43,945 nt of DNA, taken from assembly GCA_002841595.1 (NCBI GenBank), contig PHAD01000009.1, forward strand, positions 1 through 43,945, read 5' to 3'. This document shows, one piece after another, positions 8,762-33,015 of this stretch (its first letter is position 1; every line of letters begins with the position of its first letter). The DNA comes from Firmicutes bacterium HGW-Firmicutes-12 (GTDB lineage: Bacteria; Bacillota; Peptococcia; DRI-13; PHAD01). Below the pieces are notes generated by a model that was not told the DNA's origin, ran no database searches, and saw only the letters and a program-made list of their open reading frames with translations. Made by a program: the position numbers and the translations under genes.

Positions 8762-8786
8762 GTTTCAATGAAATTTTCATTGAAAC
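8762..8786. promoter_or_regulatory. Perfect 25-bp palindrome at the -35 of the CoA operon
   Basis: GTTTCAATGAAA and TTTCATTGAAAC flank a single T. This 12-bp arm length with a one-base centre is typical of a repressor dimer site. Its right arm overlaps the -35 hexamer at 8780-8785. Confidence 0.65.
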
Positions 8787-8807
8787 CATAAACTTATAGT
8801 ATATAAT
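8780..8807 (+). promoter_or_regulatory. Sigma-A-type promoter of the CoA/TRAP operon
   Basis: TTGAAA (8780-8785), a 16-base spacer, and TATAAT (8802-8807) give a near-consensus promoter about 100 bases upstream of the VOC gene. It is embedded between two palindromes, so it is likely tightly regulated. Confidence 0.7.
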
Positions 8808-8808
8808 A

Positions 8809-8855
8809 AATATTATCACTTTGTCAACAATAATTCTTGACAAAGTGATAATATT
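8809..8855. promoter_or_regulatory. Perfect 19-bp inverted repeat at the transcription start
   Basis: AATATTATCACTTTGTCAA (8809-8827) is exactly complementary to 8837-8855, with a 9-base spacer. It begins two bases after the -10 box, so it could be an operator at +1 or a 5' mRNA hairpin. There is no T run after it, so it is not a standard terminator. Confidence 0.7.
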
Positions 8856-8909
8856 ATGGCAAATTGTTTATAGGGCTATATTAATAAGATATAGAAAAGG
8901 AGGTGAGTT

Positions 8910-9317
8910 ATGAACATTGAAGGGATATCTCATATTGGCATTGCAGCTTCAAAACTTGATGAAACAGTAAGCTTTTTCACAGAAATACTTGGAGGAGAAC
9001 TTGTTTCTAGAGAATGGGTCGATGATCAGAAATTGATTTCAGCTATGGTAAAGCTTGGTGATGATTGCATCGAGATTATGGAGTCTACTGATAGGGATGG
9101 AATTATAAGTAAATACATAGCAAAAAAAGGTGAAGGAATACACCATATTTCTTTAAGAGTCAAAGATATAGTTGGATTAATCGGTACATTAGAAAAAAAA
9201 GGAATTTGTGTTATTGGTAAACAATTGAATTCTTCTGAAATAAAGATGGCTTTTATTTCTCCTCGTAGTGCTTTTGGTATTTTAATTGAGTTGGTAGAGT
9301 TTGGAGTAAAAAAGTAA
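8910..9317 (+). CDS. VOC-family protein, methylmalonyl-CoA epimerase-like
   Basis: This 135-residue protein of the vicinal-oxygen-chelate fold has two beta-alpha-beta-beta-beta modules. Visible metal positions are His8 (ISHIGIA), His78/79 (GIHHISLRV) and Glu127 (LIELVE). This spacing matches methylmalonyl-CoA epimerase. SD AAAGGAGGTGA precedes the ATG. It is the first gene of the CoA operon, which suggests a role in setting the stereochemistry of a 2-substituted acyl-CoA. No methylmalonyl-CoA mutase is present in the window, so methylmalonyl-CoA is only one possible substrate. Length and motifs are complete. Confidence 0.85.
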   Translation: MNIEGISHIGIAASKLDETVSFFTEILGGELVSREWVDDQKLISAMVKLGDDCIEIMESTDRDGIISKYIAKKGEGIHHISLRVKDIVGLIGTLEKKGICVIGKQLNSSEIKMAFISPRSAFGILIELVEFGVKK

Positions 9318-9376
9318 TTGACTTTAAAACTTATTAATAATCGTACTAAAATAAAATCTTGAGAAGGAGATTTATC

Positions 9377-10573
9377 GTGAGTGAATTATTTAAAGGTATA
9401 AGGGTAATAGATTTTTCCAATAACGTAGCCGGACCTGTTGCGGCAACCATGTTAGCGGACTTTGGAGCCGAAGTGATTAAAATAGAAAAACCGTTTGTAG
9501 GGGACGACAGTCGTGGTTTTGTGCCGTTTGTGGAAGGTAAAAGCGTTATGTTCATGTGGTTGAATCGTGGAAAAAAATCTATCGTACTGGATATGAAGAG
9601 CCCGGAGGGAAAAGAAATATTCAAATCATTTGTTAGAAAAGCAGATGTCGTAGTAGAGAGCTTTAGGCCCGGTGTGATGGAAAGGCTGGGTCTTAATTAT
9701 GAGGAATTAAAAAAGATCAATCCCAAATTGATCATGTGTTCTGCATCAGCTTTCGGACAAACGGGGCCGTACAGACAATTGCCGGGTTATGACATGATTG
9801 CGCAGGCAGTCAGCGGCGTTATGGCTATTACAGGTTATCCCGATGGACCGCCGACAAAAATAGGTCCTTCTCTGGCAGATTATTGCTGCGCGTTTAATGC
9901 TTTCGGTGCGATAGCTTCATCCCTGTTTTATAGAGAAAAGACGGGGATCGGTCAATATATTGATGTGTCTCTTGCTGATTCCATACTGGCCATAAACGAC
10001 CATGTTGAAATTGGCTTCCAGGATCCTAATGTCAGTAGAAACGGCAACCACCATGTCATGATCGGACCATATGGCGTGTTCAGTGGGAATAATGGTAGTA
10101 TCGCGCTTGGTGCTGTAAATGAGAACTTATGGGCTAAGTTATGTAAGCTGATGGGGAAAGAAGAATATATTGATCATCCTGATTACAATAACACCGGGAA
10201 ACGAGTAAAAGTACTTGACAGTGTAATCGAAATGATTGAGACATGGTTGAAAACATTCGATAGCATGGTTGAAGCAGAAAAGATACTAAAAGAAAATGGA
10301 ATCCCATGCGCAAAAATCAACACAGTTCAAGATTTAAAGACGGATCCTCATTACCTTGCACGGGGAATGATTACAGAATTAAAAACACCTCAACTTTCCG
10401 TAGGTAGCGTAAAAACAAGAGGCATTCACATCAAATTCTCTGAAACCCCGGGAGAAATGGGTGTAAGTCCAGAACTTGGCGAGCATACTGATGAATTACT
10501 TAGAGATATTTTGGGCTTAGATGATGAAGGCATTAATGAACTGAAAGCTAAGGGAGCTTTTGGAACGAAATAA
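9377..10573 (+). CDS. Family III CoA-transferase (CaiB/BaiF type)
   Basis: This 398-residue protein moves CoA between carboxylic acids by the family III mechanism. The N-terminal VIDFSNNVAGPVAATMLADFGAEVIKIE pattern (quoted in part), SFRPGVMERLG, the GYDMIAQAVSG segment with the expected catalytic Asp, and KTGIGQYIDVSL are family hallmarks. The chosen start is GTG at 9377, seven bases after AAGGAG. A TTG at 9359 lies upstream of that SD and is rejected. In the operon it probably activates the acid brought in by the TRAP transporter, in the same way as the BbsEF-type step of benzylsuccinate oxidation. The CoA donor and acceptor are not readable from sequence. Confidence 0.93.
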   Translation: MSELFKGIRVIDFSNNVAGPVAATMLADFGAEVIKIEKPFVGDDSRGFVPFVEGKSVMFMWLNRGKKSIVLDMKSPEGKEIFKSFVRKADVVVESFRPGVMERLGLNYEELKKINPKLIMCSASAFGQTGPYRQLPGYDMIAQAVSGVMAITGYPDGPPTKIGPSLADYCCAFNAFGAIASSLFYREKTGIGQYIDVSLADSILAINDHVEIGFQDPNVSRNGNHHVMIGPYGVFSGNNGSIALGAVNENLWAKLCKLMGKEEYIDHPDYNNTGKRVKVLDSVIEMIETWLKTFDSMVEAEKILKENGIPCAKINTVQDLKTDPHYLARGMITELKTPQLSVGSVKTRGIHIKFSETPGEMGVSPELGEHTDELLRDILGLDDEGINELKAKGAFGTK

Positions 10574-10647
10574 ATTTGCCATTTATTCGATTGAGAAGCG
10601 ATAAAAACGTAATAAGATATTATTTCAAAAAGAACGGAGGTGTTGTT

Positions 10648-11400
10648 ATGACGATACAAAAAGGTAGAGTAGCAATTGTAACGGGTGCCGGACAAGGTAT
10701 TGGTAAAGGTATTGCCATAAAGCTGGCCGAGGCTGGAGCCAATGTGGTAGCTTGTGATATTAATGAGAAAAACGCCCGGGAAGTTGTGGATGAAATAAAA
10801 GCATCCGGCTATGAATCCCTTGCTGTGGCTTGTGATGTGGGATCAAAACCGGATTGCGAACGTTTGGTTATGTCAGCATTGAACCAGTGGGGAAGAGTGG
10901 ACATTTTAGTGAATAATGCCGGTATTATTAGAGACGCTTTAATCTACAAAATGACTGAGGAGCAGTGGGACGCCGTGTTGAGGGTAAATTTGAAAGGACC
11001 CTTTATGATGACCCAGGCTTCCATCGTACCTATGAAAGAGCAAAAATTCGGAAGAATTATCAATATTTCCTCATCGGCCTGTAAGGGCAATATAGGTCAG
11101 GCAAATTATTCTTCAGCCAAAGCTGCAATCAACGCATTAACTTATACCTCAGCGTTGGAGCTTGGCAAATATGGTATTACCGTAAATTCTATTTGCCCTG
11201 GCGTAATTGATTCAGAGATGGTCCGCTCTGTACCACAAAACATTCTTGACAGATGGCTTGCTGTCATCCCTGCTAAACGTATTGGACAACCAGAAGATAT
11301 GGCACATATGGTCATGGCTTATGCTGCAGAAGAGGCCGGTTATCTTAATGGACAGACTATTTATGTTGACGGTGGTATGCAGACGGGGCTTAAGATGTAG
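10648..11400 (+). CDS. Short-chain dehydrogenase/reductase (3-hydroxyacyl-CoA dehydrogenase-like)
   Basis: This is a 250-residue classical SDR. The nucleotide motif TGAGQGIG is at 12-19, NNAG at 89-92, and the catalytic Ser142, Tyr154 and Lys158 (YSSAK) are all present. The Asp at the end of strand 2 (ACDINE) suggests NAD(H) preference. The start at 10648 follows ACGGAGG. A frame open from 10576 lacks a ribosome site. It is placed between the CoA-transferase and the HMGCS-like gene, so it probably oxidises a 3-hydroxyacyl-CoA to the 3-oxoacyl-CoA that the thiolase then handles. A FabG-type reductase role is an alternative. Confidence 0.9.
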   Translation: MTIQKGRVAIVTGAGQGIGKGIAIKLAEAGANVVACDINEKNAREVVDEIKASGYESLAVACDVGSKPDCERLVMSALNQWGRVDILVNNAGIIRDALIYKMTEEQWDAVLRVNLKGPFMMTQASIVPMKEQKFGRIINISSSACKGNIGQANYSSAKAAINALTYTSALELGKYGITVNSICPGVIDSEMVRSVPQNILDRWLAVIPAKRIGQPEDMAHMVMAYAAEEAGYLNGQTIYVDGGMQTGLKM

Positions 11401-11510
11401 CTGACAGGTTAGCGATACTTATTAAGAAATTCACCTTAATAGCAAAAGGCATGCTTTGCAGGAAGTGTTTTGCTCTTTAAATACGGTACTGTGAACGGAG
11501 GGATAAATAT

Positions 11511-12923
11511 ATGGCTGGAATAACTACTTATGGAGCTTATATACCTTATAACAGACTAGACCGAGAGCGTATCAAAGAAGCTTTCGGAAAACCGGTGCTG
11601 ACAGGGGAAAAGGCTGTTGCAAATTACGATGAAGACAGTATTACCATGGGAGTATCAGCAGCTCTGGACTGCTGTAAAAATATAAATCCGCAAGACATTG
11701 ACGCTATCTACTTTGCTACTACAACTTCGCCATACAAAGAGAAGCAGTGCGCCACAGTCATTTCTGGCGTTATTGATAGCAGGAAGTCAGTTAGGACGGC
11801 TGATTTCGGTAATTCCCTCAGATGTGGATCCACTGCTCTTTTGGCAGCTATGGATGGAGCTAAGAACGGGCTTAATGTCTTGCTCTCGGTCAGTGACTGT
11901 AGACTAGGGGCTGCGGACGGTCTGAATGAGGTGGTTTTTGGCGATGGAGCAGTATCTTTCGCTCTGGGCAACAAAAATGTTATTGCTGAAATACTTGACT
12001 GGTACAGTATTTCTAGCGATTTTCATGATCAATGGCGTGCAACTGATGATATTTTTGTGCGTAATTGGGAAGAAAGATTTTGTGTAACACAAGGGTATAA
12101 TAAATTCATGATTGAAGCGGCCGAAGGTGTTATGACAAAAACAGGGCTAAAGCCAGAGGATTTTTATCGGGTTGTTATCTATGCACACTCAACTAGATAC
12201 CAGTTGGAAATTGCAAAAAAAATAGGGTTTCGTCCGGACCAAATTCAAGACAGCCTGTATGCGTCAATTGGTAATACCGGAGCAGCAAGCGCTCCAATGA
12301 TGCTTGTTGCTTCATTTGAAGAAGCTCAACCTGGAGATAAAATACTTTTTATGACTTACGGAGAGGGCAGCGATGCCGTAGTTTTTGAGGTAACTAAAGA
12401 AATATTAAAATTAAAATATCGTCCTAGTATAAATAAATACATCAATACTAAAAAGGTAACAATGAACTACGAGAAATATTTGCGCTGGAGAAAGCTAATA
12501 ATCACAGAACCGGCTAAAAGACCTCGCCAAGAAAGGTCATCCTTACCAGAGTATTATCGCAATTCCGATAAGAATTTTGCGCTATATGGTTGCAGATGCA
12601 CCAACTGCGGTACTCCCCAGTTCCCTCCTACTAGGATATGTATTCAATGCCAAGCAGTAGATAAAATGGAAAAATACAGAATGTACGGAAAGAAAGCAAC
12701 TATTGCTTCATACACGGTTGATTATCTTGCAGAATCCCTTGATCCCCCAAATGTTATCGTGGTAGTAGACTTCGAAGGAGGGGGGCGTATGTTTTGCCAC
12801 CTCATCGATTGCGATTTGGATAGAATACAGATTGGCATGGAGGTAGATATGTCCTACCGTCGATTATTTGTAGAGGGTGGGATACATACCTATTTTTGGA
12901 AAGCTATCTTTAAAAAGCATTAA
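11511..12923 (+). CDS. HMG-CoA-synthase-like protein fused to a DUF35 zinc-ribbon/OB domain
   Basis: This 470-residue, two-part protein has a thiolase-fold, HMG-CoA-synthase-like N-terminal part (1-300), with GITTYGAYIP at the start and a nucleophile Cys105 in LRCGSTALLAAMD. A His in IYAHSTR and GNTGAASAPMML follow. Residues 340-470 are a DUF35 module: zinc ribbon C363-x2-C366...C377-x2-C380, then an OB fold (ASYTVDYLAES...VVVDFEGGGRMF). In archaea, separate thiolase, DUF35 and HMGCS subunits form one complex that channels acetoacetyl-CoA. Here DUF35 is covalently joined to the synthase-like part, and the thiolase is encoded next door. The SD ACGGAGGG precedes the ATG. The reaction (condensation or its reverse) is unknown. 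Confidence 0.88.
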   Translation: MAGITTYGAYIPYNRLDRERIKEAFGKPVLTGEKAVANYDEDSITMGVSAALDCCKNINPQDIDAIYFATTTSPYKEKQCATVISGVIDSRKSVRTADFGNSLRCGSTALLAAMDGAKNGLNVLLSVSDCRLGAADGLNEVVFGDGAVSFALGNKNVIAEILDWYSISSDFHDQWRATDDIFVRNWEERFCVTQGYNKFMIEAAEGVMTKTGLKPEDFYRVVIYAHSTRYQLEIAKKIGFRPDQIQDSLYASIGNTGAASAPMMLVASFEEAQPGDKILFMTYGEGSDAVVFEVTKEILKLKYRPSINKYINTKKVTMNYEKYLRWRKLIITEPAKRPRQERSSLPEYYRNSDKNFALYGCRCTNCGTPQFPPTRICIQCQAVDKMEKYRMYGKKATIASYTVDYLAESLDPPNVIVVVDFEGGGRMFCHLIDCDLDRIQIGMEVDMSYRRLFVEGGIHTYFWKAIFKKH

Positions 12924-12937
12924 GGAGGATGAATGTA

Positions 12938-14119
12938 ATGGCCGTTGGCATAAAAGATAAAGCAGCAGTAGTCGGGATGGGCTGTAGCAAATTTGGGGAA
13001 CGTTTCGACTGTAGCTTAGAGGATTTGATGCTAGAGGCTGTCACCGAAGCGTTGAAGGATGCTAATATTGAATTTAACGATATCGATGCGTTTTGGTTTG
13101 GAACCTATTGTTCCGGATTGGCTGGAGATACTTTTTCGAACCGTATGAAGAGTCAGTACAAACCTGTCACACGTATAGAGAATAAGTGCTGCACCGGTAC
13201 GGATGCATTTCGCAACGCCTGTTATGCAGTGATTTCGGGCGCTTGTGACGTAGCCATGGCAATTGGTGCGGAAAAACTTAAAGATGGCGGTTACAGCGGG
13301 TTAGCTATTCCCAATGTTGAATCTGACCGGACAGTTCCGGACTTGTCGGCGCCTGCCATGTTTGCCTTTTTAGGGTCTTCCTATGCACACAAGTATGGTC
13401 TTACAGAAAAACAATTACGGGGAACTTTAGCACGCATTGCGTTTAAAAACCATTCTAATGGGGCGTTAAACCCCAAAGCGATGTTTCAAGCGGAAGTACC
13501 CATGAAAAAAATTCTAGAATCGCCTGTTATTGCTTACCCCCTTACTCTAATGGATTGTTCGGGAGTTGCAGACGGCTGTAGCTGCGCCATCATCACCCGA
13601 ACAGAAGATGCCAAGAAATACAGGAATGACCCTATGTATGTTAAGGCGATGCAGATTGCCGCAGGTCCCGCCCATAGCGAAAGACACCAGAGTTATGACT
13701 TTACAACAGTAAAGGAAACATGCTATGCGGCTGAAGCGGCATACAGGGAGGCCGGTATCACTGAACCAAGAAATCAAATTAACCTGGCCGAAGTGCATGA
13801 CTGCTTTACAGTAACGGAATTAACCATATATGAGGATTTATTATTAAGTGAGCGTGGCGACGGATGGAAAGATGTAATGAGGGGAGTTTTTGACCGGGGT
13901 GGTGTACTCCCAGTTAATATTGACGGTGGCCTTAAGTCATTTGGGCATCCGATTGGAGCTAGCGGCATTCGTATGTTGTATGAAATGTGGTTACAATTCC
14001 ATGAAAAGGCTGGTCTGAGGCAGAGGGAGAATCCTAAATTAGGATTGACCCATAACATGGGAGGAACACCCTATTCGTGTGTGGCAGGCGTAACAATTGT
14101 GGGAAAAGAACTGGGCTAG
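12938..14119 (+). CDS. SCP-x-type thiolase
   Basis: This 393-residue thiolase belongs to the acetyl-CoA acetyltransferase / SCP2-thiolase group. An N-terminal Cys motif is visible in ENKCCTGTDAFRNACYAV, the catalytic His motif in GGLKSFGHPIGASGIRMLYE, and a terminal HNMGGTPYSCVAGVTIVG. The SD AAGGAGG (12922-12928) overlaps the stop of the HMGCS-DUF35 gene. The ATG at 12938 is 9 bases downstream and is preferred over the in-frame ATG at 12929, which abuts the SD. BbsB of toluene degradation and archaeal acetoacetyl-CoA thiolases belong to this group and need a DUF35 partner, which is supplied here by the preceding fusion. The inferred role is the thiolytic or condensing step of the operon's pathway. 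Confidence 0.9.
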   Translation: MAVGIKDKAAVVGMGCSKFGERFDCSLEDLMLEAVTEALKDANIEFNDIDAFWFGTYCSGLAGDTFSNRMKSQYKPVTRIENKCCTGTDAFRNACYAVISGACDVAMAIGAEKLKDGGYSGLAIPNVESDRTVPDLSAPAMFAFLGSSYAHKYGLTEKQLRGTLARIAFKNHSNGALNPKAMFQAEVPMKKILESPVIAYPLTLMDCSGVADGCSCAIITRTEDAKKYRNDPMYVKAMQIAAGPAHSERHQSYDFTTVKETCYAAEAAYREAGITEPRNQINLAEVHDCFTVTELTIYEDLLLSERGDGWKDVMRGVFDRGGVLPVNIDGGLKSFGHPIGASGIRMLYEMWLQFHEKAGLRQRENPKLGLTHNMGGTPYSCVAGVTIVGKELG

Positions 14120-14122
14120 GCA

Positions 14123-14326
14123 ATGAATATTGAGCAGTGTCTGGAACAAATATGCCCTGCTACAGGCCATTCAATTAAAGTCAGGATAATTTTCACTGTT
14201 GAAGGAGGGGATTCGTGTTCGGTTGATATCGAAGTGCTATTTAGACAATGTAGCAGGATGAGATCCTGTGAGGAATTCAATAATAATATATTTTGTTTAT
14301 TGTGTAAGAAAGAAGCAGATGATTGA
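14123..14326 (+). CDS. Small Cys-rich protein (67 residues), unknown
   Basis: This frame starts 3 bases after the thiolase stop, so it is likely translationally coupled. The protein has seven cysteines (C6, C11, C32, C43, C49, C58, C61) in 67 residues, ending in a CxxC pair (FCLLCKK). No signal peptide or membrane helix is seen. I know no family. Its position inside the CoA operon suggests a metal-binding or redox accessory to the thiolase or synthase-like enzymes. It could also be a zinc-ribbon remnant. The ribosome site is weak. Confidence 0.5.
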   Translation: MNIEQCLEQICPATGHSIKVRIIFTVEGGDSCSVDIEVLFRQCSRMRSCEEFNNNIFCLLCKKEADD

Positions 14327-14384
14327 AAATACATGAAATTAATAAACAATATAGATTAATTACCATGTTTAAGGGGCGTGATAA

Positions 14385-14426
14385 ATGAAAAAAAATCCAA
14401 TAAGGATCGCAAAAAATACTAATTAA
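14385..14426 (+). CDS. Possible 13-residue leader peptide before dctP
   Basis: ATG at 14385 follows AAGGGGCG by a few bases and encodes MKKNPIRIAKNTN, then stops 19 bases before the dctP start. It may be a translated leader, or chance. Confidence 0.25.
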   Translation: MKKNPIRIAKNTN

Positions 14427-14445
14427 TTAAAGGGAGGAAAATTAA

Positions 14446-15489
14446 ATGAGAAAAAATAAGCTTTGGGCGTTAATAACATTATTAATATTTATAACAGTTA
14501 TATTCGCAGGTTGCGGACAAGAAAAGGAACAAGAGCAAAGTGAGCCTGAAATAATTGTGCTCAAAATGGGTACACATTATAACACGGAACATTATATAAC
14601 TAAGGGTTATTTTGAGTTTGAGAAAGAAGTAGAAGCTAACTCAAATGGGCGAATTGATGTACAGATTTTCCATAGTTCCTCTATTATAAAAGATGACCGT
14701 CAAGCTGTTCAGTTGTTATCAGATAATAGTGTTCAGATAGCGCATTCTGAATGTAGTATGATTGGTACAGTTATCAATGACAAAAGATGGGAATCCTTAT
14801 CTATTCCCTATTACTTTGGAACAGAACCTCAAGTGATTTACAATATTCTTGATAATGGAAAAGCATTTTCAATGCTGAGTAAAGATCTTGAGGGTAAAGT
14901 AAAGATAAAAGTCATTGGGACAGCCAATGGGGGAAGTGCTTCTATTTCAAATACAAAAAAGTCTATTGAAAGTATGGAAGATTTTAAAGGGTTAAAAATA
15001 AGGGTGCCTGAGTCTAAACCATATCTGGAGCCGATTAAATTATGGGGAGCAAATCCTACACCTATGAATTTTGGTGAGATTTATACTTCTTTACAACAAA
15101 AAGCTATTGATGGTGTCTTTACTTCTAAAACGGCAATAGTAGATTTCAAATTTCCTGAACTTTGTAAGTATCATACAAACATCAACCCATTTTTACTTAT
15201 TTTTACTTTTGGGATAAACACTGATTTTTATAATAGCTTACCATCAGATATGCAAAAAATAGTATTAGAGGCTAGTGACAATATGATCAAAACAATTAGG
15301 GAAGGAGCTGTAGAGAAAGAAAAAAGTCTTGATGAAGCATTAGTACAACAAGGTGTGAAAGTAGTTAATCTAAGTCCCCAGTTCCAGAGTGACCTTCAAA
15401 AAGCAGTTGCCCCATATGTTGAAGAAAGAAAGGCTGAAATTGCTGAGTATATTAAAATTGTAGATGAAGATATTAAAAATCTGAAGTAG
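14446..15489 (+). CDS. dctP: TRAP transporter substrate-binding lipoprotein (DctP family)
   Basis: This 347-residue extracytoplasmic solute receptor has a lipoprotein signal ending in the lipobox FAGC (Cys23), so it is anchored to the outer face of the membrane, as expected in a Gram-positive or Negativicute. The DctP core is clear: KMGTHYN start strand, LKIRVPES with the conserved substrate-carboxylate Arg186, GANPTPMNFGEIYTSLQQKAIDG, and a helical C-terminus. SD GGGAGG precedes the ATG. The conserved Arg points to a carboxylate ligand, consistent with the CoA-transferase upstream. It is followed by a strong hairpin and then dctQM. Confidence 0.95.
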   Translation: MRKNKLWALITLLIFITVIFAGCGQEKEQEQSEPEIIVLKMGTHYNTEHYITKGYFEFEKEVEANSNGRIDVQIFHSSSIIKDDRQAVQLLSDNSVQIAHSECSMIGTVINDKRWESLSIPYYFGTEPQVIYNILDNGKAFSMLSKDLEGKVKIKVIGTANGGSASISNTKKSIESMEDFKGLKIRVPESKPYLEPIKLWGANPTPMNFGEIYTSLQQKAIDGVFTSKTAIVDFKFPELCKYHTNINPFLLIFTFGINTDFYNSLPSDMQKIVLEASDNMIKTIREGAVEKEKSLDEALVQQGVKVVNLSPQFQSDLQKAVAPYVEERKAEIAEYIKIVDEDIKNLK

Positions 15490-15492
15490 TAA

Positions 15493-15549
15493 TTATTATA
15501 TAACTGGACCTTAGTCTTCGAGAAGACAATAGGTCCAGTTATATAATAA
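15493..15549 (+). promoter_or_regulatory. Perfect 19-bp intercistronic hairpin between dctP and dctQ
   Basis: 15493-15511 is exactly complementary to 15531-15549 (TTATTATATAACTGGACCT arm), with a nested GTCTT/AAGAC mini-stem in the loop. No T run follows. It likely stabilises or processes the mRNA so that the binding protein is made in excess over the membrane subunits. Confidence 0.75.
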
Positions 15550-15567
15550 ACCAATGGAGGAAATATG

Positions 15568-16056
15568 ATGAAAAAAAGGAAAATAATATTAAGAGATATT
15601 GAAGTCAATTTATGTATCGTATTGATGATTGTAATGCTTATTGTTGCCACGCTTGGGGTGTTCTTTAGGTATGTTCTTAACAACTCTTTAGTATGGTCAG
15701 ATGAAATATGCCGTTATATGTTCATGTGGCTAGTATTTTTATCCGCCTCATATGCAGTTGCGATGAGAAAGCAACTTACTATTGAATTACTTACGACATA
15801 TTTGTTAAAAGACAGGATTGGGACATTGAAAATAATTAAGATAATGGACAATATTATCTGTATAGTTTTTTCTTTGTTTCTTGTTGTTGTAGGTTATAAG
15901 CTCGTAATAAATACAATCGAATTTAGTCCAGTTCTGCAAATTCCTATGAAAGTGGTGTATTCATGTCTTCCCATTGGTTGTCTGCTAATAGTGGTTCGTA
16001 TTGTCGAAACATTGTTACAAAAAGAGAAAAATGAGGAAACGGCTGAATATCGTTGA
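15568..16056 (+). CDS. dctQ: TRAP transporter small membrane subunit (DctQ family)
   Basis: This is a 162-residue protein with four transmembrane helices, and a typical WSDEICRYMFMWLVFLSASYAVAMRKQL core (quoted in part). DctQ spans the membrane with DctM and docks the binding protein. Two adjacent ATGs (15565, 15568) follow GGAGG. The second has the better spacing of 7. It lies directly after the dctP hairpin and 32 bases before dctM. Length and hydrophobic profile are normal. Confidence 0.92.
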   Translation: MKKRKIILRDIEVNLCIVLMIVMLIVATLGVFFRYVLNNSLVWSDEICRYMFMWLVFLSASYAVAMRKQLTIELLTTYLLKDRIGTLKIIKIMDNIICIVFSLFLVVVGYKLVINTIEFSPVLQIPMKVVYSCLPIGCLLIVVRIVETLLQKEKNEETAEYR

Positions 16057-16088
16057 TATCAGTATAGACTGCATAAGGGAGGAAGAAA

Positions 16089-17381
16089 ATGGATATAATT
16101 ATGTTTCTCATCTTTATTGGACTATTACTAATCGAGGTGCCTGTTGCAATAGCAATTGGTATTGCGGGTGTATTTGGAATGTGGGTTGGTAACTTAAACA
16201 TGCAATTGGCGGCTACTGCTGTTGTATATACATTAAATTCTTTTACGCTTATTGCTGTACCATTTTTTATACTAGCAGGAAATATTATGAGTCGAGGCAG
16301 CATAGCCTCTAAGTTGTTGAAGATCGCACAAGTTTTCTTGGGAGAAAGACAGGAATCTATAGCAATAGCTACTTTAATAGCATGTGGTTTTTTTGCTGCG
16401 TTATCTGGTTCTGCAGTAGCGACTGTTGCTGCGCTTGGTGCTATCACGATTCCAATGATGATTTCTCAGGGGTATAAACCTGGGTATGCGGGAGCAATAG
16501 CAGCTTCTGGTGCAATAGTGGGACCCATTATTCCGCCTAGTATAATTATGGTAGTATATGGGGTTCAAACGAACACATCAATATCAGATTTATTTATAGC
16601 GGGTGTAATCCCTGGTATACTTTTGATAACTGCGTTTATCATTACATTTCAATTAACAAAAAAGAATAATATTAAGTTTTTGCCATTAAATAGTGATGTG
16701 AGAAAGTATTCGATAAAAGATAAACTATGGGCCATCTGGGATGGGAAATGGGCACTCTTAATGCCAATAATCGTATTAGGCGGTATTTATTCAGGTTTGA
16801 CTACCCCCACTGAGGCCTCTGTCATTGCTGTTGATTATACGATTATTGTTAGTCTTTTTATTGAAAGAGACATGAAGTGGAGAGATTTGGCAGAGTCTTT
16901 TAAAAGTACTATTTTAACTCTTGGTGGACTTTTAATCTTATTAGGAACAGCGGCTACCTTCGGTTATGTTATTACATTGAACCAGATTCCTGAAAATCTT
17001 TGTAGTGCTGTTTTGGGGTTGACTTCAAATCCCATAGTAATACTGTTCCTGGTTAATATAGTTATATTAATAGCTGGATGTTTCATGGAGGCAATAGCTG
17101 CTATTGTTATTTTTGCGCCCATCTTATTACCCTTGGTTAATGCGGCCGGAGTCTCGAATCTTGCATTTGGAATAATTATGTGTGTTAACCTAGTCATTGG
17201 TACATTAACACCGCCGTTTGGCTTAAATCTGTTTGTGGCTTCATCCGTATCTGGTGTGTCTGTTCAAGATATTATAAAAAAAGCAGTGCCTTATATGGTT
17301 GCTGCAGTTATAGTTCTGTTATTAATTACATATATACCTCAGTTAACTGAATTTTTACCAGAATATATAAATGGTTTTTGA
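16089..17381 (+). CDS. dctM: TRAP transporter large membrane subunit (DctM family)
   Basis: This 430-residue, 11-12 helix protein is the ion-coupled transport subunit. Family features are ALSGSAVATVAALGAITIPMM, IVGPIIPPSIIMVVYG, the PTEASVIAV loop, and a late GTLTPPFGLNLFVASSV. The SD GGAGGA is 6 bases before the ATG. It is the last gene of the operon, and transcription should stop at the hairpins at 17716 and 17885. Together with dctP and dctQ it forms a complete TRAP system, probably sodium- or proton-driven, for an organic acid. Confidence 0.95.
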   Translation: MDIIMFLIFIGLLLIEVPVAIAIGIAGVFGMWVGNLNMQLAATAVVYTLNSFTLIAVPFFILAGNIMSRGSIASKLLKIAQVFLGERQESIAIATLIACGFFAALSGSAVATVAALGAITIPMMISQGYKPGYAGAIAASGAIVGPIIPPSIIMVVYGVQTNTSISDLFIAGVIPGILLITAFIITFQLTKKNNIKFLPLNSDVRKYSIKDKLWAIWDGKWALLMPIIVLGGIYSGLTTPTEASVIAVDYTIIVSLFIERDMKWRDLAESFKSTILTLGGLLILLGTAATFGYVITLNQIPENLCSAVLGLTSNPIVILFLVNIVILIAGCFMEAIAAIVIFAPILLPLVNAAGVSNLAFGIIMCVNLVIGTLTPPFGLNLFVASSVSGVSVQDIIKKAVPYMVAAVIVLLLITYIPQLTEFLPEYINGF

Positions 17382-17715: not shown

Positions 17716-17743
17716 CCCCTGATTTTTAATCAGGGGACTTTTT
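17716..17743 (+). terminator. Rho-independent terminator
   Basis: CCCCTGATT (17716-17724) pairs with AATCAGGGG (17728-17736) around TTT, followed by ACTTTTT. It probably ends the CoA/TRAP operon, though it lies 330 bases after dctM. Confidence 0.8.
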
Positions 17744-18038: not shown

Positions 18039-18677
18039 TTAAGAATACCCTTTCAAATAGGTTGAAATCATATCTTGTTCATTCTTTACTAGATCAAAAT
18101 AAGTATCGTCATCTTTATATAGAAGATATTCGAAGATAATACCTCGTAATATTATCACGATTTCTCTTGCAACCTTTGAAACATCAAGTTCTCGCTGTAA
18201 TTCACCTGACTGTTGAGCTTCGGTTATAGCTTCCCCAATTAATAAATATATAAATCGATCTTCGCATATTACCTTGTTTCCGTGATTTGGTCTGGAGATA
18301 ATATTTGTATAATGATATCTAAGCATATTCTTGCCAATTTTTGTCTCATGCAATTTTGCAAGATGCGATACAAATGCCATTAGTTTTTCAATACCCTTTA
18401 TATTTGCAAGGTGTTCATTATAAAACTCTTGATAGCAGTTATCATAAGTATTAAATAAATCTTCGGTTATGATATCTTCCTTTTTTGAAAAATATCTATA
18501 AAAGAGCCCCATAGATATTTCGGCTTTATGACTGATATCTTCTATCTGAACATTCTCAAAACCTTTTTCAAAAATTAAGCTTATTGCTGCATCAAATATC
18601 CTTTGTCTTGTGTCAATTGCTTGCTGTTTGCGTTTTTTTATTTTCTTTTCCACCATTTTATCCCATCCCATTAACAT
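18039..18677 (-). CDS. TetR-family transcriptional regulator
   Basis: This is a protein of about 212 residues. The N-terminal TetR helix-turn-helix is clear: RQRIFDAAISLIFEKGFENVQIEDISHKAEISMGLFYRYFSKKEDI (quoted by key segments), followed by an all-helical ligand domain. The frame is open from an upstream ATG at 18731, but an SD GGAG lies 6 bases before the ATG at 18677. It is convergent to the CoA/TRAP operon and a natural candidate for its ligand-responsive repressor, yet I find no palindrome shared between its own upstream region and the operon promoter, so this is only inferred from location. Confidence 0.88.
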   Translation of the reverse strand: MLMGWDKMVEKKIKKRKQQAIDTRQRIFDAAISLIFEKGFENVQIEDISHKAEISMGLFYRYFSKKEDIITEDLFNTYDNCYQEFYNEHLANIKGIEKLMAFVSHLAKLHETKIGKNMLRYHYTNIISRPNHGNKVICEDRFIYLLIGEAITEAQQSGELQRELDVSKVAREIVIILRGIIFEYLLYKDDDTYFDLVKNEQDMISTYLKGYS

Positions 18678-18720
18678 TATAATCTCCATGATTAATAAAA
18701 AGGAACTATAGCTGCTAGAA

Positions 18721-18955
18721 TGACAAGTCAAGAGCTGTATGCACGACTTTATATTGGCGCACTTGTCAGTCCGAATGAAAATTGTTAATATCGCAAAATG
18801 GCGACTTATAAATGTATTGCTTTTTCACAAATTATTATATCTCATAATGATATTAATAACAAAATGTTATAAAAATAATTACTACTAAACTAGTAATTAT
18901 TTGGGTACAGGATAGAGAGGAACTGCAATGTAATTTGAAGAGGTGAATTAATATT
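18721..18955. promoter_or_regulatory. Upstream region of tetR and of the 61-codon ORF, with inverted repeats
   Basis: TGACAAGT (18721-18728) and ACTTGTCA (18761-18768) form an inverted repeat just upstream of tetR. AATAATTACT (18874-18883) pairs with AGTAATTATT (18892-18901) before the rightward small ORF. These could be operators or weak hairpins. Confidence 0.45.
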
Positions 18956-19733: not shown

Positions 19734-19976
19734 ATGTATACCACAATTCAGAAATGGGGAAACAGCCATGCGGTAAGACTGCCCAAAGGAATTTTGGAGG
19801 TTGCAGACTTACACGAAAACGATAAAGTTGAAATTAAAGCAGAAGACAATATGATATATATTAAACGTGCGAATAAAAAGCATAAAACACTGAAAGAGCG
19901 TATTGCTGAATACTCTGGAGAATACGTATGTGCTGAATGGGACACCGGAAAACCGCAAGGTAAAGAGATATGGTAA
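19734..19976 (+). CDS. mazE: MazE-type antitoxin (AbrB fold)
   Basis: This 80-residue protein has the MazE/AbrB N-terminal DNA-binding swapped-hairpin signature (TTIQKWGNSHAVRLPKGIL, DKVEIKAEDNMIYIKR) and a C-terminal acidic, toxin-binding tail (LKERIAEYSGEYVCAEWDTG). It would neutralise the downstream MazF and autoregulate the pair. SD GAGAGGTGAG precedes the ATG. Its stop overlaps the mazF start (ATGGTAA), the usual coupling. It appears intact although surrounded by broken genes. Confidence 0.93.
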   Translation: MYTTIQKWGNSHAVRLPKGILEVADLHENDKVEIKAEDNMIYIKRANKKHKTLKERIAEYSGEYVCAEWDTGKPQGKEIW

Positions 19977-20326
19977 AGAAACGATACATCCCGGAACAGG
20001 GAGATATTATCACACTCGAATTCGATCCTCAAGCCGGACATGAGCAGAAAGGCAAGAGGCCTGCGCTTGTAGTTAGTAATCAAGTATTCAATAATTTCAC
20101 TAAGATTGCCATGGTTTGCCCGATTACGAATACTAACCGAGAGTTTCCATTACATGTAGCTCTTGATGACAGAACAAAGACAACCGGGCTAGTCATGTGT
20201 GAACAAGTAAAATCCTTAGACATTTCGGCGAGAGGTGCTGCTTTCTATGAGAAAGTACCGCAAGATATTGTAGAAGAAGTTGTAGATATTATTGCTGGTT
20301 TTACTGAAATTATTTCTGAAGCATAA
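19970..20326 (+). CDS. mazF: MazF-type mRNA interferase toxin
   Basis: This 118-residue PemK/MazF ribonuclease has the family start (PEQGDIITLEFDPQAGHEQKGKRPALVVS). It has the conserved Arg in KRPALV, the Thr in ITNTNREFPLHV, and DQVKS-like MCEQVKSLDISAR. MazF toxins cut mRNA at short, specific sequences. Its start overlaps the end of mazE by 7 bases. No frameshift is seen, so the module should be functional. A remnant of a second mazF lies at 41983-42108 and matches this protein's middle section closely. Confidence 0.95.
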   Translation: MVKKRYIPEQGDIITLEFDPQAGHEQKGKRPALVVSNQVFNNFTKIAMVCPITNTNREFPLHVALDDRTKTTGLVMCEQVKSLDISARGAAFYEKVPQDIVEEVVDIIAGFTEIISEA

Positions 20327-20454
20327 AATGATGGTCCAATATCATTAATGAGATATATTCAAGATTGACAAGTAAATAATACATTTAGTAGCCTGTCTAT
20401 CTTTGCTGTGGTTTGTCAGTATGTCAAGTATGCAGAAAAGGATACAGGAGAACC

Positions 20455-20924
20455 ATGAAAAGGGTGTACTGTTTGTATAGAGTCTCAACCAAGGGACAGG
20501 TAGATAAAGACTATATTCCGATGCAAAGACTTGCCTGTAAAGAGTTTGCTCAGATACAGGGATGGAACATAGTAAACGAGTTCTCTGAAAAGGGAGTTTC
20601 CGGATATAAGGTTGCTACAAAAGACAGGGATGTAGTGCAGCAGATCAAAGCCGATGCCTTACTAGGTAAGTTTGATATATTGTTGGTATTTATGTTTGAC
20701 AGACTTGGCCGGCGAGATGATGAAACGCCTTTTGTCGTAGATGGTTTGTCAAAAATGGCAGATTTAATAAGAAAAACCGTGAGTTATATGAGATTGAAGT
20801 TAATGATGCAGAAGCTGAAGTCGTGAAAACTATATTCGATAAAACCGTTCAAGAGGGGTTTGGTTCCCATCGTTTGGCTAAATTTAAATTTGATAAAGGC
20901 GAATTTACATTCAATTCTGAATGA
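20455..20924 (+). pseudogene. Large serine recombinase, internally deleted and frameshifted
   Basis: From 20455 (after CAGGAG) the frame encodes a resolvase catalytic domain (MKRVYCLYRVSTKGQ with the catalytic Ser, then FDILLVFMFDRLGRRDDETPFVV). Near 20755 it jumps to another frame reading GRFNKKNRELYEIEVNDAEAEVVKTIF...EGFGSHRLAKF, a recombinase-domain segment. Around 70 residues normally between the two are missing. The second piece ends at a hairpin shared with a minus-strand recombinase remnant. The integrated element it once mobilised is not recognisable. Confidence 0.75.
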
Positions 20925-25077: not shown

Positions 25078-25390
25078 TGCGATTAGCCTCCTATCTTAAT
25101 TTATTAAATATATCAACGGATTACTCCGTTAATCACAGTATTATTTATTATTGCAATCTGCACATAAATTAGAACTTAGTTCTAATTATAATTGATGTAA
25201 CGAGATCCGACAATAAAAAATATGATATAATATCAAAAACCATCCTGTATTAAGAACTACTCATGTTTTAGGGCGGATGTCTTTTTTGAATATACAGTTT
25301 GAAAACTGCATGAGGCTTGAAATAACGAATTAAATCATATAAAATAAGATACTAGATTGATTTGAAAACGTAGCGAAAGGATATTTGAAT
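25078..25390. other. Divergent intergenic region
   Basis: Besides the SDR promoter/operator there is a small AACGGA/TCCGTT hairpin (25115-25130) in the SDR leader. I could not pick a clear rightward promoter for the AAA gene. Confidence 0.45.
25167..25213 (-). promoter_or_regulatory. Promoter with operator palindrome for the minus-strand SDR
   Basis: On the minus strand, TTGTCG (25213-25208), a 17-base spacer and TATAAT (25190-25185) make a promoter. A perfect 9-bp palindrome AATTAGAAC-TTA-GTTCTAATT (25167-25187) overlaps the -10, as expected for MarR/TetR-type repression. Confidence 0.65.
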
Positions 25391-26215
25391 ATGAAAGAAT
25401 TCTGTGGGAGCCGGGGCTATGTTGCTTCGGACGACTTATTGCGAAGTGTGAATATTGCGATTGCCCTGCAAAAACCCCTTCTAATTAGAGGTGAACCTGG
25501 TACAGGGAAGACCATGCTTGCCGAAGCTGTCGCCGAGACGCTTGGGATGGAGCTTATTGTATGGAATATTAAGTCTACAACCAAGGCCCAGGATGGGCTA
25601 TATGTCTATGATACAGTGCAGCGCCTTTATGACAGCCAGTTTGGTAATGAAAGTGTTGATCAGATTGCAAAATATATTAAGTTTGGCAAGCTGGGAACGG
25701 CGTTTAAAAAAGAGAAACAGGTCGTTCTTTTGATCGATGAGATTGACAAAGCCGACCTTGAATTTCCGAATGATCTGCTTTGGGAACTTGATAAAATGGA
25801 ATTTTATATTCCGGAAACCGAAGAGACAGTGAAAGCAAAGGTCAGGCCCGTGGTAATTATCACGTCAAACGCTGAGAAAGAATTACCGGATGCATTTCTG
25901 CGACGCTGTATTTTTCACTACATTAATTTTCCGGACCAAGAAATGATGGAGAACATTGTCCGTGTCCATTTTGAAGATTTGGATCATAATCTTCTGCGGC
26001 AGGCGCTAAAAACATTTTATTCGATCCGTGATTTGCGTGGGCTTCAAAAAAGGCCAAGCACCTCAGAACTGATTGACTGGATACAAGCGCTGCAAATAGG
26101 CGGCATCGCTCCGCAGCGTATTGCAGAAGAAATGCCTTTTGTCGGGGTTCTGTTGAAGAAAGACGAAGATTTTGCTGTTCTCTCTCGCGGTGAGAACGCA
26201 AAGCGCGTTGGGTAA
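25391..26215 (+). CDS. MoxR-type AAA+ ATPase
   Basis: This 274-residue AAA+ protein has Walker A GEPGTGKT (34-41), Walker B VVLLIDEIDKAD (from 111), a sensor-1 ITSN segment and sensor-2-like ALRRCIFHY arginine region. It has the MoxR layout: short, single domain, with a C-terminal lid. The ATG at 25391 is 10 bases from AAAGG; an in-frame TTG at 25385 is less likely. The stop is 6 bases before the VWA gene, so they form a pair. MoxR/VWA partners usually act as chaperones that insert metals or remodel protein complexes. The client is not encoded nearby. Confidence 0.9.
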   Translation: MKEFCGSRGYVASDDLLRSVNIAIALQKPLLIRGEPGTGKTMLAEAVAETLGMELIVWNIKSTTKAQDGLYVYDTVQRLYDSQFGNESVDQIAKYIKFGKLGTAFKKEKQVVLLIDEIDKADLEFPNDLLWELDKMEFYIPETEETVKAKVRPVVIITSNAEKELPDAFLRRCIFHYINFPDQEMMENIVRVHFEDLDHNLLRQALKTFYSIRDLRGLQKRPSTSELIDWIQALQIGGIAPQRIAEEMPFVGVLLKKDEDFAVLSRGENAKRVG

Positions 26216-26221
26216 GAGATA

Positions 26222-27436
26222 ATGTTTACTTCTTTTTTCTACCTATTGAAGGCAAGGGGATTAAATGTGTCACTGCAAGAGTGGTTTACCCTGCTGGAAG
26301 GATTGCAGCTTGAGCTGCACGAATCCAGCTTGACGGGTTTCTATCACCTTGCACGCGCGACGCTTGTAAAAACTGAGGCGGATTTTGACAAGTTTGATCT
26401 TGCTTTTGTTGAATTTTTTAAAGGGATCAAAGCATATGATGAACTACCGGAGGAGTTCCTTGAATGGTTGTCAACACCGATCGATGGGAGTTACTTTGAT
26501 CAAGAAGCATTTGCTGGTGATGCAAAACTTGATATGGAAGAACTTCGCCGTAAATTCGAGGAACGGCTGAAAGAACAGAATGAACGCCACGATGGAGGTA
26601 ATTATTGGGTTGGAACCGGCGGAACGTCTCCTTTTGGCAATTCAGGCTATCACCCTGGAGGGATCCGGGTAGGGGGGGCTGGAATTAGTCAGAGCGCCCT
26701 TAAGATAGCCGGAGAACGAAATTATCGAGACTTTAGAGAAGACAACGTACTGGAAGATAGGCAGTTTCAGATGGCTTTTCGGTCTTTACGACAGTTTTCA
26801 TCCAATGAGGATGGTCCGATAGATGAACTTAAGCTTGATGAGACGATCGATAAAACCTGTAAAAACGCAGGGAAATTGAAGTTGGTATTCGGGCGGCCTA
26901 GGCGTAACGCCGTGAAGTTGCTTGTTTTGTTTGATTCAGGTGGATCTATGTGGAGGTATGCCAAGCTTTGCAGTTCACTGTTTCAGGCAGCGAGCAAATC
27001 CAATCATTTTAAAGATTTAAAGACTTATTATTTTCATAATTGTTTCTATAATCGGCTTTATACCACACCATATTGTACAGATGTGGAAAGCGTTGAGACA
27101 GATTGGGTGCTGCAAAATTTGAAAAGTGATTATAGGGTTATTGTGGTGGGGGACGCCTCCATGGATCCCTATGAGTTACTTAAGCCGGGAGGCTGTCTTT
27201 ATTACTATCACTACAATGACGACAATCGCTACAATAAAGAGCCCGGTATTGAATGGGTTCGTCGTTTTAGTAAAAGATATAAAAAAATGATCTGGATCAA
27301 TCCTGTGGACCCATCGAAATGGGAGTCGGGGCACGGTTCAACTACCATTAAAAAAATAAAAGAGGAAGTTCCAATGTATCACCTATCGGTTGACGGTCTG
27401 CAAGCTGGATTAAAAAGCTTGATAGCAGCGAGATAG
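26222..27436 (+). CDS. VWA-domain protein, CoxE/YehP-like partner of the AAA ATPase
   Basis: This 404-residue cytoplasmic protein has no signal peptide. The N-terminal half is helical (FYLLKARGLNVSLQEWFTLL, resembling CoxE-family starts) with a glycine-rich hinge (GGNYWVGTGGTSPFGNSGY). The C-terminal half is a von Willebrand A domain with MIDAS DSGGSM at 238-243, where an Mg ion would bind, and a later GDASMDPYEL. It is encoded immediately after the MoxR-type ATPase, consistent with the two acting together. The pair is followed by a terminator and forms a compact two-gene unit. Confidence 0.87.
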   Translation: MFTSFFYLLKARGLNVSLQEWFTLLEGLQLELHESSLTGFYHLARATLVKTEADFDKFDLAFVEFFKGIKAYDELPEEFLEWLSTPIDGSYFDQEAFAGDAKLDMEELRRKFEERLKEQNERHDGGNYWVGTGGTSPFGNSGYHPGGIRVGGAGISQSALKIAGERNYRDFREDNVLEDRQFQMAFRSLRQFSSNEDGPIDELKLDETIDKTCKNAGKLKLVFGRPRRNAVKLLVLFDSGGSMWRYAKLCSSLFQAASKSNHFKDLKTYYFHNCFYNRLYTTPYCTDVESVETDWVLQNLKSDYRVIVVGDASMDPYELLKPGGCLYYYHYNDDNRYNKEPGIEWVRRFSKRYKKMIWINPVDPSKWESGHGSTTIKKIKEEVPMYHLSVDGLQAGLKSLIAAR

Positions 27437-30055: not shown

Positions 30056-31132
30056 TTGGCTTTTCGGGAATTATCATTTCAATCAATTTCTGTTCTAACG
30101 CTGGCAACATCAATATTTGGCAAGTTTCGTGGAGGACCTGCAAAAGTTGCTGTTGTTGGAAGTGCTTTAATGGGTACAATATCTGGTAGTGCTGTTGCAA
30201 ATGTTGCTGGAACCGGTTGTATAACTATACCGTTAATGAAAAAGACGGGATATGATTCTAAAAGTGCTGCTGCTATTGAAGCTGTTGCTTCAAGTGGAGG
30301 ATTGATTATGCCACCAATAATGGGAGCGGCCGCATTTGTTATGTCAGAGTTTTTAGGGGTACCTTATTTAAAAATTATAGTTGCAGCAATTATACCGGCA
30401 CTATTATATTATATAGCAGTATTTGTTGCTGTTGATTGCAAAGCAGCCCGTATGGGGCTAGTGGGGATGCCTAAAGAAGAATTACCTAATTTCAAGGAAG
30501 TCATCAAATCAGGTTTTAAGTTTATTATTCCATTATTAATACTGACATATCTTATAGTTGTTGTAATGTCTTCGCCACAAAAAGCAGCTTTTTGGGGTAT
30601 TATTTCTATAATAGTGATTCATGCATTTGAATTGATAAAAAATAAAAAATATGGCGAGTTAAAAGGTATATTTGATATATTTGAGGAAGGGTCAAAACAA
30701 GGTCTATCAATAATAGTTGCCTGTGCCTGTGCTGGTATAGTAGTTGGTGTAATTTCACTTACTGGAGTTGGATTTATGTTATCAGGTGCATTGGTAGAAA
30801 TAGGTGGTCAAAACTTATTTTTATTGTTGTTTATAACTATGTGTACTTCAATAGTATTAGGGATGGGTTTACCTGTTACTGCCTGTTATATAATACTTGC
30901 TGTCTTGGCAGCACCAGCATTAGTGAATTTAGGAGTTAACCCAATAGCTGCTCATTTATTTGTTATGTATTTTGGGGTGCTTTCCGGAATAACTCCACCT
31001 GTCGCATTAGCTGCATATGTTGGTGCTGGCATAGCTGAAGCTAAACCTATGGCCGTTTCTATTGAAGCATGCAAAATAGGAATTGTAGCCTTTATTCTAC
31101 ACTCAATTAAGATAAATTCAGGCATCCAATGA
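30056..31132 (+). pseudogene. Fused TRAP permease (4TM/12TM type), N-terminally truncated
   Basis: About 358 residues form the C-terminal half of a DctQM-fusion TRAP permease (GGPAKVAVVGSALMGTISGSAVANVAGTG..., ASSGGLIMPPIMGAAAFVMSEFLG, and SGITPPVALAAYVGAGIAEA). The fused small subunit and first helices are missing. The bases before 30090 include a piece in another register (FGFSGIIIS), so a frameshift adds to the truncation. There is no ribosome site at 30056. The 5' join lies about 60 bases after recQ. It is dead unless a short form is made. Confidence 0.8.
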
Positions 31133-32713: not shown

Positions 32714-33015
32714 CGGCGATTCAAAATATAGGCTCCCAGGGAATGGAAGAAACAGATGAATGATTTTGAATATTATGATTTAAAAAATAGAGTTAAACTT
32801 GTATAAATAAATAAACAATATTAGAATATAAATAATAAATGGTAAAAAAAGGCGACAAGCAGATCATTTGTTTAGATGGAGTAATGTAGGCGTGAGATAA
32901 GCTTTATTAAACTATCCGAATAGTCGGACTATACAAATCATAATAAATATTCACTAACCATAGCTTATATGAATTATGATTTGTGAATGAAAAACATAAA
33001 GGAGGTGGAAGAACT
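32714..33015 (+). promoter_or_regulatory. Leader region of the giant secreted-protein gene
   Basis: A 12-bp inverted repeat ACAAATCATAAT (32933-32944) and ATTATGATTTGT (32973-32984) lies 30-80 bases before the start, with AAAGGAGGTGG ribosome site at about 32998. It may be an operator or leader hairpin. No other gene is seen in this AT-rich stretch. Confidence 0.5.

Follow-up and report, generated by a model that had tools for sequence, protein, structure and literature searches.

Organization of the locus

The stretch of DNA analyzed here (the window) comprises 43,945 nucleotides of contig PHAD01000009.1 of Firmicutes bacterium HGW-Firmicutes-12 (positions 1-43,945 of the forward strand). 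Between positions 8910 and 17381 it carries nine co-directional genes on the plus strand, which encode a VOC-superfamily epimerase-like protein, a family III coenzyme A (CoA)-transferase, a short-chain dehydrogenase/reductase (SDR), a protein in which a 3-hydroxy-3-methylglutaryl-CoA synthase (HMGCS)-like part is fused to DUF35, an SCP-x thiolase, a small Cys-rich protein and the three components of a TRAP importer, DctP, DctQ and DctM. An initial annotation of this DNA had proposed the same gene set as a CoA-ester pathway with its own importer, and the list of open reading frames (ORFs), together with Pfam and NCBIfam matches, bore out all of the named genes, their shared direction and their order. 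The intergenic gaps are short, the largest (~120 bp) lying upstream of dctP. We found no terminator-like site inside any of the gaps of the operon, and a terminator-like hairpin, which is a pattern match only, follows dctM (17716-17736, plus strand). It is therefore plausible that 8910-17381 is a single transcription unit.

The HMGCS-like/DUF35 fusion protein

The fusion protein (11511-12923, plus strand; 470 aa) comprises an HMGCS/KAS-III-like part at residues 1-330, followed by zf-ChsH2 (358-382) and OB_ChsH2_C (393-449) domains. Its AlphaFold2 (AF2) model, with a mean pLDDT of 83.9 and mostly above 80 in the DUF35 part, folds most like archaeal HMGCS, which is the nearest fold, and like PhlA and MucA of the PhlABC (Pseudomonas protegens, PDB 5m3k) and MucABC (Streptococcus macacae, PDB 9vbo) complexes. 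Apart from the fusion, the KAS-III C-terminal family has a sole match in the genome, one 340-aa frame of FabH size.

The archaeal fold, together with the fit of NCBIfam HMGCS models to the N-terminal half (235 bits, cut-off 244), would suit a working HMGCS-like condensing enzyme, with which the operon would perform an aldol or Claisen synthesis, or its reverse, on two fragments. The active site argues otherwise. In the alignment with the HMGCS of M. thermolithotrophicus (PDB 6esq, chain I), all three catalytic residues are replaced: Cys114 by Leu103, Glu82 by Thr71 and the His of the VFHQP motif by Tyr224. None of the 100 fusion proteins compared has Cys in the catalytic-Cys column, and 88 of them have Leu there; the locus set used throughout is biased towards the fusion protein of the window. 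PhlA offers an inactive precedent, as it lacks the same Cys and Glu, and acyl transfer in PhlABC uses residues of PhlC alone (PMC6392133). We thus rejected HMGCS catalysis by the fusion, which the initial annotation had taken for a synthase-like enzyme, and find a condensing function scarcely credible.

The DUF35 part, on the other hand, appears intact. The Pfam matches (PF01796/PF12172; zinc ribbon and OB fold) lie above their cut-offs, and the four zinc-binding residues Cys363, Cys366, Cys377 and Cys380 are kept in 100 of 100 fusion proteins, so that the loss of the zinc fold, considered earlier as a possible objection, is not indicated by the sequence. Our preferred reading of the fusion is that of an HMGCS-like scaffold without catalytic activity, to which DUF35 is attached.

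Relatives of the fusion are encoded in at least 403 stretches of public genome contigs. Those with 59-68% identity come from Dethiobacter, Syntrophomonadaceae and Oscillospiraceae, and fused copies with about 31-34% identity are borne by plasmids of Rhodococcus, Sphingobium and Azoarcus. Fusions of DUF35 to thiolase-superfamily proteins have been known since 2010 (PMC2954200). The fusion as such is thus not the distinguishing oddity for which it had been taken.

The thiolase and its putative complex with the fusion protein

The thiolase gene (12929-14119, plus strand) lies immediately downstream of the fusion gene, an arrangement found in 82 of 89 loci; four of the remaining seven loci end within ~530 bp of the fusion gene. 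The protein is of the SCP-x/SCP-2 type, with 591.6 bits to NCBIfam PRK06157 (cut-off 403), an intact nucleophilic Cys87 and intact HDCF and GHP motifs. Cys87, His290, Asp291, Cys292, Phe293 and His340 are invariant in all 95 partner thiolases. The initial annotation had raised the possibility that these genes occur widely but separately, with known substrates. They do occur widely, while fusion and thiolase form a linked pair rather than scattered genes of known substrate.

Steroid aldolases are among the thiolase partners of DUF35 proteins, and Ltp2 and ChsH2 were among the PDB matches. This would agree with a retro-aldolase comparable to Ltp2-ChsH2 or Sal-Shy, which would convert a branched 3-hydroxyacyl-CoA to a ketone or aldehyde and an acyl-CoA, with the SDR acting elsewhere in the route. 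HDCF, however, is the SCP-2 thiolase form, and the DUF35-linked steroid retro-aldolases carry YDHF or YDCY instead (PMC12329534), forms that none of the 95 partner thiolases shows. The thiolase of the window also matches the archaeal thiolase more closely than Ltp2 (191 versus 73 bits). With HDCF and Cys87 intact, we rejected a retro-aldolase as highly unlikely.

As in PhlABC, the HMGCS-like, DUF35 and thiolase-like modules are encoded together, the HMGCS-like part has lost its catalytic residues and the thiolase has kept its Cys. Based on the loss of the HMGCS residues, the retention of those of the thiolase and the adjacency of the two genes in most loci, the fusion and the thiolase are best viewed as one multicomponent thiolase, scaffolded by a pseudo-synthase, with a PhlABC-like layout in a catabolic gene setting. 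Since PhlABC and MucABC are the closest solved bacterial trios of this kind, we also considered a CoA-independent acyltransferase, or a biosynthetic direction, that would yield a C-acylated product. The company of the genes speaks against this. In the window they are grouped with an importer, a CoA-transferase and a dehydrogenase; relatives have hydratases, CoA ligases and, in 33 of 89 loci, acyl-CoA dehydrogenases as neighbors, and a relative on a Rhodococcus plasmid sits with a ring-hydroxylating dioxygenase. We regard a C-acylating role as very improbable.

Some loci hold more elaborate arrangements. Two fusion-thiolase pairs lie near each other in L067, L070, L084, L106 and L124, from Dehalococcoidia and Chloroflexi metagenome-assembled genomes (MAGs), in some cases followed by 4-6 acyl-CoA dehydrogenase genes. 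In L105 (595-11127) and L110 (10001-20452), fusion, thiolase, acyl-CoA dehydrogenase and hydratase genes are clustered with further genes and followed by a VOC gene; genes in these two clusters match a B12-dependent mutase, its small subunit and a chaperone by size alone.

The Cys-rich small protein

The thiolase gene is followed by a frame for a 67-aa Cys-rich protein (14123-14326, plus strand), which had no match among Pfam and NCBIfam models and represents an undescribed family. An alignment of 14 relatives revealed five invariant Cys. Relatives follow the thiolase in 13 other loci, which indicates that the frame is a real gene. When 398 genomes of the phylum were searched with a profile, nine strong matches were found, all beside a thiolase of this type, plus one weak match. 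The carriers are the genomes with the closest fusions (at least 47% identity), and none of the genomes with fusions of 44% identity or less has it. In L035 of a Syntrophomonadaceae genome, which shares its contig with L050, one frame (3-1022) encodes the Cys-rich protein and an enoyl-CoA hydratase as an in-frame fusion. The AF2 model is poor (pLDDT 65.6). We propose that the protein serves the thiolase as a dedicated partner; that it is a metal-binding accessory is a guess from the Cys pattern.

Enzymes encoded upstream of the fusion and the importer

The VOC protein (8910-9317, plus strand; PF13669) resembles methylmalonyl-CoA epimerase (MMCE), scoring 96 bits with TIGR03081 against a cut-off of 114.95. 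It retains H8, E55, HH78-79 and E127 in the alignment to MMCE, the presumed metal-site and catalytic positions of that enzyme. Two true MMCE genes and two methylmalonyl-CoA-mutase-family genes lie elsewhere in the genome. The VOC protein is thus a paralogue, and we rejected it as the housekeeping epimerase in view of the two better copies. Epimerization of an alpha-substituted 3-oxo- or 3-hydroxyacyl-CoA would be chemically reasonable and would fit the gene position. The VOC gene is present in only seven loci of the fusion set and so characterizes only some members of the family.

The CoA-transferase (9377-10573, plus strand, in an ORF from 9359) is of the family III (CaiB/Frc) type, as seen from its match to PF02515 (401.9 bits) and from the conserved Asp of its SLAD motif, which aligns with that of SUGCT and YfdE. 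Its likely start is the GTG at 9377, preceded by AAGGAG. The SDR (10648-11400, plus strand, in an ORF from 10576) likely starts at the ATG at 10648, preceded by GGAGG. From Pfam and NCBIfam matches and the comparison of loci, it is probably an NAD-linked dehydrogenase that oxidizes 3-hydroxyacyl-CoA. The main evidence is that relatives fill its slot with an HBD-type enzyme of another family: L064 has the order CaiB-HBD-fusion-thiolase, and an HBD-type dehydrogenase precedes the fusion in L035-L038 and L048. An Asp after the second strand of the SDR suggests NAD use, as such an Asp generally does in SDRs.

The importer genes encode the substrate-binding protein DctP (14446-15489), the small membrane subunit DctQ (15565-16056) and the large membrane subunit DctM (16089-17381), all on the plus strand and assigned with Pfam, and in the case of DctM also with NCBIfam. 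DctP has a conserved Arg of the carboxylate-binding type, R186, which aligns with the corresponding Arg of DctP proteins that bind isethionate and sialate; together with the presence of all three components, this identifies a TRAP system. A second TRAP large-permease gene lies elsewhere in the window (30056-31132), just downstream of recQ; it matches DctM positions 74-399 only and is apparently truncated at the N-terminus.

Conservation of the gene order

The initial annotation had suggested a search for the same gene set in other genomes. L053, an Oscillospiraceae MAG from goat cecum, has the six genes from VOC to the Cys-rich protein in identical order, without the TRAP genes, and carries a TetR gene beside the operon. 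Identities to the window are 44% (VOC), 57% (CaiB), 55% (SDR), 60% (fusion), 78% (thiolase) and 29% (Cys-rich). The VOC gene of L053 is hidden under an ORF of the opposite strand and was located by direct search. We recognized no further copies of the six-gene operon in the family and phylum of L053, the matches in the phylum being apparently genomes already examined.

Looser versions of the set occur in Chloroflexota, Syntrophaceae and Acidobacteria. The order is fusion-thiolase-CaiB-SDR-VOC in the Chloroflexota loci L114 and L125 (L116 is truncated at the end of its contig), AtoDA-fusion-thiolase-VOC-VOC in L112 and fusion-thiolase-VOC-SDR in L081. Their fusions sit in a clade of the fusion tree apart from that of the window, and their CaiB proteins are only ~32% identical to that of the window. 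Similar sets may thus have come together on more than one occasion, although this falls short of proof. The two VOC genes of L112 (11487-12302; an Acidobacteria MAG) differ from each other and stand in tandem downstream of the family I CoA-transferase, fusion and thiolase genes.

Among the loci with the fusion core, TRAP genes were seen in the window alone, an unrelated set in Oceanobacillus aside. The importer is thus a local addition and not, as had been assumed, part of a conserved unit. In close relatives the core is accompanied by different transporters and enzymes of CoA activation: a sodium:solute symporter (SSS) and a family I CoA-transferase in L005, and a short-chain fatty-acid transporter, an AMP-ligase and a beta-keto acid cleavage enzyme (BKACE) in L049. 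These pairings support an imported 3-hydroxy or 3-oxo acid that would be activated as the free acid.

Upstream palindromes and the TetR-family regulator

Two palindromes lie upstream of the VOC gene. The first, GTTTCAATGAAATTTTCATTGAAAC, spans 25 bp (8762-8786), has the half-sites TCAATGAA/TTCATTGA and is a candidate operator; its first base is the point from which the initial annotation had started. The second (8809-8855) has 19-bp arms with the core TTTGTCAAC-N7-CTTGACAAA, is the sole copy in the genome and is a candidate operator/promoter region. The TTTGTCAAC/CTTGACAAA core is also found upstream of the VOC gene of L053, with a spacer of 6 nt instead of 7 nt. The TTCATTGA/TCAATGAA half-site pair likewise precedes both VOC genes, in opposite arrangement, and is absent from the rest of the 1.39 Mb of related loci, where the TTGTCAA/TTGACAA pair occurs once elsewhere with a different spacer. 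With its order conserved and similar palindromes upstream in L053, the gene set is, as far as sequence comparison can tell, a real operon and not a chance arrangement.

A TetR-family regulator is encoded downstream and convergently (18039-18731, minus strand). It is a candidate regulator of the operon, and of the TetR proteins encoded in the loci, the one next to the L053 operon matches it best (33% identity). The regulator probably acts at the two palindromes and would be released by an acyl-CoA.

Proposed pathway

We hold with moderate confidence that the operon is catabolic, serving the import of a 3-hydroxy or 3-oxo acid, probably alpha-substituted, its activation with CoA, NAD-linked oxidation, epimerization at the alpha carbon and thiolysis with the help of a pseudo-synthase scaffold. 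DctPQM would import a carboxylic acid that carries, or readily gains, a 3-hydroxy or 3-oxo group and is probably substituted at the alpha carbon, and the CaiB-type enzyme would transfer CoA to it. The SDR would then convert the 3-hydroxyacyl-CoA to the 3-oxoacyl-CoA with NAD, and the VOC protein would interconvert the alpha-carbon epimers. Finally, the thiolase complex would cleave the 3-oxoacyl-CoA using CoA, with the chemistry carried out by the SCP-x thiolase. The fused dead HMGCS-like/DUF35 protein may dock on the thiolase and help shape the cavity for CoA and substrate, in the manner of PhlA and PhlB with PhlC. The formation of this complex, the class of substrate, the target of the epimerase and the role of the regulator are what we infer from the gene context. 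Much of the CoA-ester route first suggested for the locus is retained here, namely the CoA transfer, the SDR oxidation, the retro-Claisen step (at the thiolase) and the epimerase-like VOC protein, in a six-gene set that recurs; catalysis by the HMGCS-like part is not.

Several observations weigh against this proposal. The VOC protein falls under the MMCE cut-off, the exact six-gene operon is found in two genomes only (the window and L053), conservation of the module does not extend to the TRAP genes, and the TetR gene sits downstream of the operon with a product only 33% identical to its L053 counterpart. In addition, an acyl-CoA dehydrogenase (AcdH) and a hydratase could come from elsewhere in the genome, so that the imported acid need not be 3-hydroxylated. 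In the resulting full beta-oxidation, a saturated or unsaturated branched or aryl acid would be imported, dehydrogenase and hydratase would act in trans and the operon would provide the last steps. Such a route would fit the AcdH, ECH, HBD and MaoC-type genes that adjoin the same core in sister clades. However, the operons of the window and of L053 both lack such genes, and L005, L049 and L112 have a transporter or a CoA-activating enzyme with no AcdH in view, which suggests direct use of a 3-oxo or 3-hydroxy acid. We consider full beta-oxidation unlikely, with a small but appreciable chance of being correct.

A literature search, with most subscription journals outside its reach, returned no description of the operon, of a pathway matching it, of a fused pseudo-HMGCS/DUF35-thiolase as a characterized enzyme or of the Cys-rich family. 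As far as we found, the fusion-thiolase enzyme type is widespread and apparently uncharacterized. A more far-reaching proposition, which we put forward tentatively and with more doubt than conviction, is that the operon represents an undescribed anaerobe route for alpha-substituted 3-hydroxy or 3-oxo acids. The VOC protein would epimerize the alpha carbon of a 3-oxo- or 3-hydroxyacyl-CoA for a stereospecific thiolase complex, and this complex would form a new, widespread class composed of a thiolase and a fused pseudo-HMGCS/DUF35, with the Cys-rich protein as a metal-binding third subunit in some Bacillota.

The annotations "HMG-CoA synthase", "OB-fold protein" and "acetyl-CoA acetyltransferase" at more than 400 genomic places probably describe one thiolase complex whose "synthase" part is without synthase chemistry. 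Correcting them matters, since, left as they are, they could mislead pathway models of anaerobes by adding a mevalonate-type or condensation step. Easily testable targets are the VOC/CoA-transferase/dehydrogenase module that recurs, as a source of what may be a new epimerase activity, and the Cys-rich partner, which may be a new subunit of the thiolase.

Other features of the window

Two further sites are likely toxin-antitoxin or mobile-element remnants: a MazF-like toxin gene adjoining a short resolvase fragment (19970-20826), and a HepT-like gene (40524-41006) directly downstream of a 103-aa ORF (40216-41006 for the pair). An AAA ATPase gene is followed by that of a CoxE-type VWA protein (25385-27436). 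A 1690-aa protein with right-handed beta-helix, PKD and cadherin-like domains (32983-38055) is probably a surface protein.

Comparison with known systems

The operon layout follows, with variations, that of PhlABC and the archaeal thiolase-HMGCS complex. The window shares with PhlABC and MucABC the three modules, and with PhlABC an HMGCS-like subunit without catalytic residues and an intact thiolase Cys, which in PhlC performs the chemistry. It differs from both in having the dead subunit and DUF35 in one chain and in its catabolic setting, and its thiolase is nearer to the archaeal thiolases than to PhlC (191 versus about 65-71 bits). The archaeal acetoacetyl-CoA thiolase/HMGCS/DUF35 complex (PDB 6esq) provides the closest fold for the HMGCS-like half and the closest sequence for the thiolase, but its HMGCS is active and makes HMG-CoA, whereas the counterpart in the window lacks the catalytic residues.

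The BbsAB benzoylsuccinyl-CoA thiolase of anaerobic toluene degradation likewise combines an SCP-x-type thiolase with DUF35, in the company of a family III CoA-transferase and an SDR. The parallel, drawn in the initial annotation, is less clear than it seemed, as BbsAB has no HMGCS-like domain and the NCBIfam BbsA and BbsB models gave 22.7 and 155.4 bits against cut-offs of 250 and 750; with scores so far under the cut-offs, we rejected membership of the Bbs family. We also set aside acetone-type degradation as in Desulfotomaculum arcticum (PMC8084838), where the cluster holds a DUF35/zinc-ribbon protein for which we drew no link to the fusion.

The VOC protein belongs to the same fold family as MMCE (TIGR03081), with the presumed metal-site positions kept in the alignment and a score under the cut-off of that family. 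Finally, pairs annotated as "OB-fold domain-containing protein" and "acetyl-CoA acetyltransferase", for example on Rhodococcus plasmid pdjl-6-4 and Novosphingobium p3, show the same fused domain order and an adjoining thiolase, at ~33-34% identity. Unlike the window, they are without the VOC/CaiB/SDR/Cys-rich set, and their neighbors are a ring-hydroxylating dioxygenase or cytochrome P450, acyl-CoA dehydrogenase and hydratases.

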